Positions 40,322 through 43,520 of a stretch of DNA of 45,236 nucleotides are shown here, piece after piece; the stretch's first letter is position 1, and every line of letters starts with the position of its first letter. The translations under genes were made by a program, and so were the position numbers. The notes under the pieces were generated by a model. It made no database searches and had not been told where the DNA came from. It was given only the letters and a program-made list of their open reading frames with translations. This DNA comes from Bacteroidales bacterium (GTDB lineage Bacteria > Bacteroidota > Bacteroidia > Bacteroidales > UBA932): contig JAFRXI010000026.1 in NCBI GenBank assembly GCA_017437755.1, forward strand, positions 1-45,236. Reading direction: 5' to 3'.

Positions 40322-42325
40322 ATGAAGACCCGCTGTCTATTGCTCATCCCCGCCCTCCTGCTCTGTGAAGCCGCTTTCGGCCAGATTGGAAGGATGGTCT
40401 GCGACGAAACCTGCCGCACCGAATATCTCAAGACCGAAGAAAAGCCCGTCACCGCTCCGCCGGCTAAGCCAAAGCCCAAGGCTGCGGCGCCAAAGCCCGC
40501 GACGGCAACCGTTGTAACCGCCGCGGCCGCTCCGGCTTATGCGGTGGTCTCCCCTGTGGGACAGGCCACGGTCGAGCCCATAAAGCAGGCGCCAAGGCTT
40601 TCAACACTGGAAGGGAAGACCATCGCCGTGGTGGGCGTGAGCTTCATGACCGGAGTCACGCATCCAGAGATCAAAAGGCTGATCCTGGAGAATTATCCCG
40701 GGGCGAAGGTCCTGCTGCTGGATGAAATCGGCTATGCAGGGCCATATCCGGCCCCGGGCATAGTCAGGAAGCAGAAGCAAGAGTTTGAACAGAAACTCCG
40801 TGATTACAAGGTAGATGCGGTCATATCCGGGAACGGTGGATGTGGCCTGTGCACTCCCAAGGAGACCGGGTCGTGCATCACTGCGGAGTACATGGGAATC
40901 CCTTCGGTGGTGATTGCCGGGCCAGGCTTTGCCGACCAGGCGCGCTACACCGCAAGGAACAACGGTGTTGCCGTCATGCGGGTGGCCGAATATCCCGGCG
41001 CGTTTGCCGCCCAATCCGAGGAAGTCCTGCTCCGGAACACCCGTGAGGTACTCTGGCCCCAGATCGTAAATGCCCTTACTGAGCCAATCTCCCAGGAAGA
41101 GCTGATGCAGGCCAAAAAGATGGAAGGAGGCCTGCGCGACGACGTTTTCTACGGTACGCTTGATGAGATCAACCAGTATTTCAAGGAGCAGAACTGGACC
41201 GACGGGCTGCCCATAGTCCCGCCCACATATGAACTGGTGGAAGATTACCTGCGATATACTCCATATAAATGGGACCAAACCGTCGCCGTCCTTCCCATCG
41301 CCCACAGGAACACCACCGCGTGGCACGTGGCGGTGAATGCGGTGATGGCCGGCTGCAAGAGGGAATACATGCCCATCCTTATTGCGATGACAAAAGGCCT
41401 GGGCGACGGCAACTTCCGGCGTACCCTAGCCAGCACCCACGCATGGGTCCCGTACAGCTGGCTGAACGGTCCGCTCGCAAGGCAGCTGGGTATCGACTGC
41501 GGCCAGGGGCAGATAAACGAGGCCGCCAACGTAGCCATCGGCAGATTCATGAACCTGGCCCTCATGAACCTCTGCGGCTACTATGTAAAGCAGGACAGGA
41601 TGGGGACCTTCGGATATCCCATGCCATGGTGCATGGTGGAGGATGACGCGGCCTGCCTGCGCGTGGGCTGGGACCCTTGGCACGTACGCAAGGGATTCGG
41701 CATCAACGACAACACCATCACCCTCGGGTCCACCCTGCTTTGGGGCAACAACATGGCCCCTTCAACCACCGACCCGCAGAAAGTGATGGAACTGCTGGCC
41801 TGGGACATATCGGAGCGCTGCCAGTTTGCCCTGGGAAGCGGCAAGCAGTATACATTCCGCACCATCCTGATGACCGAACCCGTGGCTGCCATCCTGGCAC
41901 GGAGGTACAAGTCGCCGGAGGCCCTTGAAAAGGTGCTCATAGAAGAATCCCGCCGTCCCCTCAAGGAGCGCGCCTTTGCCAATTACTATGCAAACCCCGG
42001 AAGCCGCAAGGACGGAGGGGAGCATAATCTCAGGCAATATACAGCACATCTTGGTAAGACCGAGGAAGCCACAATGAGCCCTGCCCCGGAGTGGTACGAC
42101 ACTTCCGAGGGGGAAATCAAGACCATTCCCACGATGAGACGCGGGATGACGGCGTTCATAATAACCGGTGACAGCGCCAGGAACAAGGTCCAGACTATGC
42201 CCGGCGGAGGATATGCGACCGTACAGATAGAACTGCCCGAAGATTGGGATGCCCTGATGGAGGCGCTGGGTTACAAAAGCTTGAAAGAATTCAGGTTAGG
42301 CGCCCGGCTGCAGTTGAGGCCGTGA
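40322..42325 (+). CDS. Secreted UGSC-like / 'DGLPIVPPT' domain fusion protein, function unknown
   Basis: The 667-residue protein has a signal peptide (about 1-20, EAAFGQ) and a Pro/Ala/Lys linker (about 40-90). The next domain (about 100-260) shows TIAVVGVSFMTGVTHPEI and GNGGCGLCTPKETGSC, with C174 and C177 in CGLC. This resembles the UGSC-motif (seleno)protein family, here with Cys in place of Sec. The second domain (about 270-660) begins DGLPIVPPT (D294) and has VNAVMAGC (C345) and WLNGPLARQLG. It resembles a widespread uncharacterised family often encoded beside UGSC proteins. Function is unknown. A TATCTTTA box lies about 35 nt upstream. Confidence 0.75.
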   Translation: MKTRCLLLIPALLLCEAAFGQIGRMVCDETCRTEYLKTEEKPVTAPPAKPKPKAAAPKPATATVVTAAAAPAYAVVSPVGQATVEPIKQAPRLSTLEGKTIAVVGVSFMTGVTHPEIKRLILENYPGAKVLLLDEIGYAGPYPAPGIVRKQKQEFEQKLRDYKVDAVISGNGGCGLCTPKETGSCITAEYMGIPSVVIAGPGFADQARYTARNNGVAVMRVAEYPGAFAAQSEEVLLRNTREVLWPQIVNALTEPISQEELMQAKKMEGGLRDDVFYGTLDEINQYFKEQNWTDGLPIVPPTYELVEDYLRYTPYKWDQTVAVLPIAHRNTTAWHVAVNAVMAGCKREYMPILIAMTKGLGDGNFRRTLASTHAWVPYSWLNGPLARQLGIDCGQGQINEAANVAIGRFMNLALMNLCGYYVKQDRMGTFGYPMPWCMVEDDAACLRVGWDPWHVRKGFGINDNTITLGSTLLWGNNMAPSTTDPQKVMELLAWDISERCQFALGSGKQYTFRTILMTEPVAAILARRYKSPEALEKVLIEESRRPLKERAFANYYANPGSRKDGGEHNLRQYTAHLGKTEEATMSPAPEWYDTSEGEIKTIPTMRRGMTAFIITGDSARNKVQTMPGGGYATVQIELPEDWDALMEALGYKSLKEFRLGARLQLRP

Positions 42326-42332
42326 AAGGCTG

Positions 42333-43466
42333 TTAGAGGGCAAAGCTTACAGGATTGCCGTAATCGTTCCAGTTGCGCAGGTCGAGCGTAATCGCCTGCT
42401 GGTCATAGACATTGCTGTACTGGGTGTCTTCAATGTCGCCGTTATCCCAAACGAGGTTCTCCCAGTGCACCATGCTGAGGCATTCCCTGGCCTCCTCGAG
42501 GGTAAGGACACCACCGTGCTCACGAAGGTAATTCCCGGCCGTTTCATATCTCCACCAGCTCTTGCTCTGGGGATTGCCAACCCTCTCGTCCGGTTCGGTG
42601 GTATAGTATTTCTCTGAAAGGAGATGGTTGGTGACAAGCATATACTTCTCCTGAGGATCCTTGCGAAGGATCATCGACTTCCATCCGTCATCCTTGTCAA
42701 ACTCCAGGATGGCGCAGTCGCCCGATGCATCGGCAACCATGTAGTGATAACCGGAACCAACTGACGCATCGTGCCTTATATCAAGCGAGGAAGCCAGGTC
42801 AAGGGCCTCCTGGACGGTGGCGCAGCGGTCGAGCCACAGACGCATTATGATGGTGGTACCCACCTTGTGCTTCCCGCTTTCCTGGCAGGCCGCCTGGTTG
42901 GGAAGGGCCATGATGGAGGTGCAGAGCCCCTTCTCGTTGATACCGTCCACAGGGGCGTATACGGAGGCAAGGCAGCTGAGTTTTCCGGCAAAGGTGTCGG
43001 GAAGCTTTTCCAGCGAATACCCGAAGTGCGACATGTCGCTCACCGCGATGGACGCATAACCCTTCTTTGGCCGGGAGATGGTCACCATTGTGGGATTCTT
43101 GTAATAGTCGTAGTTGCGCCCGTAGTAGAAACCGCTGCCGTCGGCCTTGGCGGCCTGGAAACTGGTGCAGTTGAAAGCGGCCAGTTCACCGTTCTCATCG
43201 GCCACCTGGGCGCTTTTCATCTTTATGGGAATGCCCTTGCCGATACGCCCCACGACGTAGTCCAGCAGTTCGGCATTGCTGTCTATGTCTTTGGAAATCA
43301 GGTCGTCAAGGTCGTAGGAGGCCTTGTATTCCATCTGATAAAGGTACTTGTTGCCCCCGACGGACTCGATGGTGGAGAGAGACCTGATCTCCCCTCCCCA
43401 GACGATGGCTATGGCTATGCAAAGGGCAGCGACTGTGCCCAAAAACCATTTGATGGATCTTTTCAT
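42333..43466 (-). CDS. Choloylglycine-hydrolase/linear amide C-N hydrolase family protein
   Basis: The 377-residue Ntn-type hydrolase has an N-terminal signal or anchor helix (about 7-25). The likely nucleophile is C100 in FNCTSFQAAKADGSGFYYGRNYDYY, followed by the family's NYDYY and NGINEKGL-type segments (VDGINEKGLCTSIM). Typical members expose the catalytic Cys after processing. Here about 99 residues precede it, so either a propeptide is removed or the family is used without cleavage. Substrate (bile-acid conjugate or other amide) is unknown. Its promoter closely resembles that of the GH43 operon. Confidence 0.85.
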   Translation of the reverse strand: MKRSIKWFLGTVAALCIAIAIVWGGEIRSLSTIESVGGNKYLYQMEYKASYDLDDLISKDIDSNAELLDYVVGRIGKGIPIKMKSAQVADENGELAAFNCTSFQAAKADGSGFYYGRNYDYYKNPTMVTISRPKKGYASIAVSDMSHFGYSLEKLPDTFAGKLSCLASVYAPVDGINEKGLCTSIMALPNQAACQESGKHKVGTTIIMRLWLDRCATVQEALDLASSLDIRHDASVGSGYHYMVADASGDCAILEFDKDDGWKSMILRKDPQEKYMLVTNHLLSEKYYTTEPDERVGNPQSKSWWRYETAGNYLREHGGVLTLEEARECLSMVHWENLVWDNGDIEDTQYSNVYDQQAITLDLRNWNDYGNPVSFAL

Positions 43467-43490
43467 TGCTGACAATATTCTGACTGTATG

Positions 43491-43520
43491 CAAATATACT
43501 TTCCATAAATGAAAAAACAA
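43491..43520 (-). promoter_or_regulatory. Promoter of the Ntn-hydrolase gene
   Basis: On the minus strand TTG (43518-43520) and TATATTTG (43491-43498) are 19 nt apart, with CCGGATTGTTTTTT at the -33 end, shared with the GH43 promoter. Confidence 0.8.

Follow-up and report, generated by a model that had tools for sequence, protein, structure and literature searches.

The protein encoded at positions 40322-42325 on the forward strand of the window (the whole 45,236-nucleotide stretch of Bacteroidales DNA analysed here) joins a UGSC domain, in which cysteine stands in the place of selenocysteine (Sec), to a large partner domain that matches no named family. With moderate confidence, we read this putatively exported fusion as an extracytoplasmic, thiol-driven small-molecule reductase of the GrdB/PrdB type, working by the relay proposed below. 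By alignment comparison, the UGSC domain belongs, at a distance, to the GrdB/PrdB family, the cysteine replacing Sec is conserved together with its CxxC companion, the putatively exported cysteine forms make up a single clade, and genes for thiol redox proteins are linked to a part of the relatives.

The gene is an intact open reading frame of 667 codons for amino acids, homologous to its relatives across the whole length, and the motifs first noticed in it, VVGVSFMTG, GNGGCGLCT (with C174 and C177), DGLPIVPPT and VNAVMAGC (with C345), were located as claimed. The protein begins with a signal-peptide-like stretch (approximately residues 1-21; 40322-40384), which reaches a Kyte-Doolittle peak of 2.42 over 12 residues and ends in ...EAAFGQ; because of this hydrophobic N-terminus, which is alike across the clade, the protein is probably exported, as the initial annotation had proposed. 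Just after this stretch lies a cysteine pair that had been overlooked, C27 and C31, in the motif CDETC (40400-40414), followed by a linker rich in Pro, Ala and Lys (approximately residues 38-72; 40433-40537), the length of which varies across relatives. The UGSC domain occupies residues 75-253 (40544-41080), where the Pfam model PF24696 scores 55.3 bits (cut-off 25), in keeping with the cysteine-form UGSC-type domain first suggested, and the NCBIfam UGSC equivalog NF041046 reaches 40.5 bits where its cut-off asks for 125. The U/C-x-x-C motif of the UGSC family is represented by CGLC at residues 174-177 (40841-40852), in register with the UGA codon of relatives, and the partner domain extends over approximately residues 276-660 (41147-42301).

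The kinship of the UGSC domain was assessed by comparing alignments with hhalign, the probabilities of which refer to single pairwise comparisons. The UGSC alignment matched that of GrdB (seven sequences) at 96.4% (E 1e-9) and that of PrdB (five sequences) at 96.1% (E 3e-9), in both cases with the cysteine aligned on Sec, while none of eight control families exceeded 1.2% and the reversed alignments of GrdB/PrdB stayed at or below 0.9%. The reference genes for GrdB, PrdB, GrdE and PrdA were drawn from Bacillota genomes, and the Sec site of these references reads UGTC in six of the seven GrdB sequences (UGTS in L136) and in all five of PrdB. An earlier comparison with three PrdB-like Sec proteins from MAGs, based on smaller alignments, had given 65.9%. 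When 76 members were scanned singly (E ≤ 1), PrdB was matched by 47, GrdB by 18, GrdF by 14, a mixed B model by 12 and GrdH by 9, the best E-value being 4.4e-8. The window protein by itself stays below the cut-off of TIGR01917 (GrdB; E 0.11, 11.4 bits, cut-off 602.2) and gave no match to TIGR04483 at E 1. Since the UGSC half thus appears to be a distant relative of a well-known enzyme family, it is not wholly uncharacterised, and the initial view of two uncharacterised halves holds for the partner domain. A thioredoxin-like fold for UGSC was considered and rejected on a sequence comparison, nine thioredoxin/TlpA entries (some proteins being included twice) having reached 0.7%. The UGSC profile also matches GrdE columns 276-360 of 447 (hhalign 68.6%), which may hint at a shared ancestry of both subunits. 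Among other arrangements seen, three MAGs (L112, L113 and L115) carry a Sec fusion plus PrdB-like proteins in which the Sec motif reads VUPLC or VUPVC, and an Arthrobacter UGSC protein (L021:8997-9812) has, at its C-terminus, sequence resembling NifU (27.2 bits, cut-off 27).

The fusion occurs well beyond this genome. At least 591 stretches of the genome collection matched our search pattern, and 583 of those listed encode a relative by tblastn, so that the matches are not due to chance. From these at least 583 stretches, of which the best 80 were kept, we read 83 relatives that carry both domains, at least as far as query residue 450, some of them ending at contig edges; L090 (no start within limits) and the partial L048, L062 and L063 were excluded. 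Because the scan began with an alignment headed by the fused protein of the window and kept the best 80, it favours fusions, and the frequency of fusion is not derivable from it. Matches were also found by tblastn in 24 plasmid records, and the ten that we read comprise four fusions (L012, across a UGA; L013; L016; L018), five adjacent UGSC-partner pairs (L014, L015, L019, L020 and L021) and one fusion split across two frames (L017). The fusions of Sporomusa (L016:6322-8027) and Vibrio (L018:5397-7106) have aconitase X and DUF126 genes nearby. No viral or phage relatives were found.

Our analysis of these relatives places C174 in the position of Sec. Of the 83 relatives, 52 carry a UGA codon there, flanked on either side by sequence homologous to the window protein, and in the alignment of 84 rows (83 relatives and the window protein) residue 174 is Cys or Sec in 83, with one gap, and C177 is kept in all 84. 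One relative counted as a cysteine form, L097, has an open reading frame that starts directly after a TGA and is probably a Sec form. The genomes support this division: across 50 of 58 candidate loci, 25 per form, selA scored above cut-off in 22 of the UGA-form genomes (L068 and L100 lying below the cut-off and L077 having no match) vs none of the exported-Cys genomes, among which L027 gave a single weak match (E 7.9e-4). In the genome of the window itself, 84.9% complete, selA gave no match and selB none above cut-off. Taken together, the UGA codons and the split in selA indicate that C174 occupies the Sec place of the relatives. The three cysteines highlighted by the initial annotation do not vary freely in the 84-row alignment, and C174 and C177 are conserved. 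C345 (41354-41356), however, is kept in 80 of the 84 rows and replaced by Val in L041-L043 and by Ala in L058, and we therefore reject three obligatory cysteines. Part of the family manages without the UxxC pair, given that the Sporomusa and Vibrio relatives, which form a separate long branch in the tree, have Met and Ser instead and keep the MAGC motif.

Pfam, NCBIfam and PHROGs offer no family for the partner domain, judging by scans of nine proteins (five of them partner-only), seven and three, respectively, and profile searches against PDB sequences returned nothing credible, which agrees with the initial view of a second uncharacterised domain. Among 48 members of the partner alignment scanned against Pfam, any one family was found in at most two; one such family, DUF6733 (2 of 48), and the Hsp104/ClpB stretches (E 0.013-0.58) look like chance. 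Partner genes in the plasmid records are labelled 'hypothetical protein' wherever annotated, and solo partner genes occur without the UGSC fusion. Strong constraint is nonetheless visible in the 84 rows: in the DGLPIVPPT signature (residues 294-302; 41201-41227), D294 and P300 are each conserved in 99% and P301 in 100%, G344, next to C345 in the NAVMAGC signature, is invariant, and so are, among others, R408, N416, E440 and W450 (41543-41671). We also considered whether this domain is the pyruvoyl subunit and rejected the idea, hhalign giving 5.3% for GrdE (seven sequences; E 0.0073), the top comparison of the partner domain but one that we do not take as meaningful, and 0.1% for PrdA (two sequences). 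The partner domain thus lacks the likeness to pyruvoyl-forming GrdE/PrdA that membership in a glycine/proline reductase complex would entail, and the mechanism of GrdB/PrdB is not simply transferable to the fusion.

In a tree of 86 fused proteins (a quick method with LG+G4 and SH-aLRT support only, three rows shorter than 430 amino acids being omitted), the 30 exported cysteine rows fall on one side of a branch with an SH-aLRT of 100, amid Sec forms. As the tree is unrooted, we infer the Sec-to-Cys direction rather than read it from the topology. According to their records, members of this clade belong to Bacteroidota, Verrucomicrobiota, Lentisphaerota, Kiritimatiellota, Bacillota and Spirochaetota, and among its 29 loci from the genome collection, seven titles name a ruminant or ruminant gut and ten are coded RUG, which we take to denote rumen bins. 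Of 32 clade sequences, 31 start with a hydrophobic stretch, the remaining one (L043) being cut by the contig end, and in 27 of the 32 the signal-like stretch is followed by C-x(3-5)-C (25 by pattern, L039 and L049 by eye), the pair being absent in L035, L044, L045, L047 and L052. At three loci (L044:9906-12761, L045:6735-9878 and L052:9867-12572), the exported fusion gene adjoins a second long partner-domain reading frame without a UGSC match; that of L044 has a signal-peptide-like start, and the tail of that of L052 looks dockerin-like by eye.

Among the kin of the window's organism, the gene is patchily distributed: six of 61 genomes match, its own included, all of them of the same genus, with near-whole copies in its own genome and in G034, and in the wider phylum three of 395 genomes match, two of them in short, weak stretches that look like chance (E 1.4e-4 and 5.8e-4). 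This patchiness would fit horizontal spread combined with loss. Shortened copies within the genus, which may be either real deletions or assembly joins, include one that retains, in a single frame, the signal-like stretch, CDETC and ~43 C-terminal residues but lacks the middle (L006:1375-1632), one in which the CGLC region and the C-terminus adjoin in two frames (L009:1-238) and one of which only the C-terminal end is left (L005:1504-1668).

The neighbouring redox genes bear on how such a protein could be supplied with electrons. A TrxB-like gene occurs at 13 of 62 loci (61 non-exported and one exported, L052), no more than 1.5 kb away and in the same orientation in 11 of these 13 cases, and sometimes behind a solo partner gene; a linked TrxB-like protein also accompanies the cytoplasmic Cys form of Nocardioides sediminis (L064), and the gene order in Arthrobacter is trxB-trxA-partner-UGSC. 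Ten of the 62-locus genomes hold 22 TrxB-like genes altogether, so that, as a rough estimate, chance would account for approximately half a case in 62. Within the exported clade, where at least 600 bp of downstream sequence were covered in 26 of 28 rows, a CcdA gene lies 76 bp downstream in L032, TlpA/ResA and then CcdA follow in L036, and a TlpA-like gene lies downstream in L043 and L046, split over two frames in the latter; three of these four loci come from close relatives. The window's own gene has no CcdA/TlpA-type neighbour among the scanned flanking genes. At the genome level, DsbD_TM/CcdA genes are present in 20 of 27 exported-form genomes, that of the window included (19 of the 26 others), and were not found in seven, mostly MAGs (L041-L044, L046, L047 and L052), so that L043 and L046 have a TlpA-like neighbour and yet no DsbD_TM match in their genomes. 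Overall, the electron supply seems to follow the location of the protein.

From these observations, a relay can be proposed in which C174, in the stead of selenocysteine, would attack a substrate held by the partner domain, the bond being cut reductively, and C177 would resolve the intermediate on C174, leaving a C174-C177 disulfide. In the cytoplasmic relatives, this disulfide would be reduced by the linked thioredoxin reductase and thioredoxin, and in the exported clade it could be reduced from outside by a TlpA/ResA-like thioredoxin fed by CcdA/DsbD, with the N-terminal C-x3-C tail possibly passing electrons on. The initial suggestion of thiol redox chemistry on a small molecule is a plausible one.

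As to the substrate, the neighbours of mostly Sec forms (105 scanned out of 141 neighbour reading frames picked by a GC3 filter) include 24 TctC, nine SBP_bac_5, six luciferase-like monooxygenases and six Pyr_redox_2, which would suggest imported organic acids as the substrate of the cytoplasmic form. TctC receptors are numerous in Burkholderiales, and for this reason the neighbours do no more than suggest small organic acids. The exported gene has no conserved neighbourhood, any family occurring at most twice among 71 scanned of 107 adjacent genes, and without constant neighbours it offers no substrate hint of this kind. Around the window's gene lie FeoAB, GH43, an esterase and an AAT/CBAH hydrolase; the last, an AAT/choloylglycine-hydrolase-type Ntn hydrolase (42336-43520, reverse strand), is convergent with the fusion gene. 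As both genes flanking 40322-42325 are on the opposite strand, the window neighbours were not used for function, and the searched loci of 12 relatives, some of these only 2-5 kb long, contained no match to any of five flanking proteins from the window.

Could the partner domain instead be the catalytic part of a non-redox enzyme (a lyase, hydrolase or isomerase), with UGSC in a regulatory or structural role? The existence of solo partner genes would agree with this, as would the Sporomusa and Vibrio proteins, which lack the redox residues and keep MAGC beside aconitase X and DUF126; these proteins, however, are confined to their long branch, while retention of Cys/Sec 174 and C177 throughout the 84-row alignment and the linkage to TrxB argue for redox turnover, and we regard this explanation as unlikely. 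Still less probable, in our judgement, is an envelope thiol-disulfide oxidoreductase with a thioredoxin-like fold that acts on proteins. CxxC and CxxxC motifs in a putatively exported protein, and TlpA/CcdA neighbours at four loci, are what such an enzyme would be expected to show, but the UGSC domain resembles GrdB/PrdB (96%) and not thioredoxin/TlpA (0.7%) in hhalign, and a small-molecule enzyme would account better for the size of the partner domain (~385 residues), for its invariant R, N, E and W and for the solute-import genes beside the Sec forms. A metal- or metalloid-binding protein for detoxification or scavenging, with the cysteines as ligands, is very improbable: the CDETC and CGLC motifs, the ferrous iron transporter FeoAB ~5 kb upstream in the window and a 'zinc ABC transporter substrate-binding protein' annotated near an Acidovorax relative point that way, but the ten plasmid-record tables name no metal-resistance gene, no metal-resistance family is among the 25 listed of 86 and 25 listed of 71 neighbour families, five flanking proteins of the window do not recur in the loci of the 12 relatives covered, and Sec in the place of C174 would speak for catalysis.

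A GrdB/PrdB-type reductase, the reading that we prefer, would resemble several known systems and coincide with none. The UGSC proteins of PF24696/NF041046 share the domain, the UxxC/CxxC motif and, elsewhere, the same partner, fused or adjacent, whereas the window protein has Cys rather than Sec, a putative export signal, an N-terminal CxxxC and a score below the equivalog cut-off. GrdB, GrdF, GrdH and PrdB, the Sec subunits of glycine, sarcosine, betaine and D-proline reductase, have a Sec domain that aligns with UGSC; the window protein differs in its lack of Sec, its putative export and a partner without GrdE/PrdA-like sequence. The CcdA-ResA/TlpA extracytoplasmic thioredoxin pathway, genes of which lie downstream of the fusion at the four loci named above, is a possible electron donor and a different protein system from the fusion. 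A fusion called UGSC/Unknown_1 was already reported in 2008, in the Global Ocean Sampling selenoproteome study (PMC2398784), which ranks UGSC proteins with the major families of selenoproteins in aquatic metagenomes. It likewise joins UGSC to an uncharacterised domain with a conserved Cys, which may or may not be our partner domain, but concerns selenoproteins of aquatic samples. Reviews still class the function of UGSC as uncharacterised (PMC13188914), and the titles and abstract openings of the papers found neither link UGSC to glycine or proline reductase nor mention exported UGSC forms.

Linking UGSC to GrdB/PrdB, to a partner domain that no family model covers and to thioredoxin reductase provides the family with a hypothesis that can be put to the test. 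The exported cysteine branch consists of selenium-free proteins, which could be produced in E. coli with no need for Sec insertion, and it hints at possible reductive chemistry in the gut that takes place outside the bacterial cell. More tentatively, this branch may represent an extracellular or periplasmic, selenium-free offshoot of the glycine/proline-reductase superfamily, with an undescribed substrate domain, electrons reaching it across the membrane by way of CcdA/ResA-type relays and a CxxxC tail of its own. If so, bacteria of the gut from six phyla or more could use a compound outside the cell as an electron sink, or unlock a nutrient from it.
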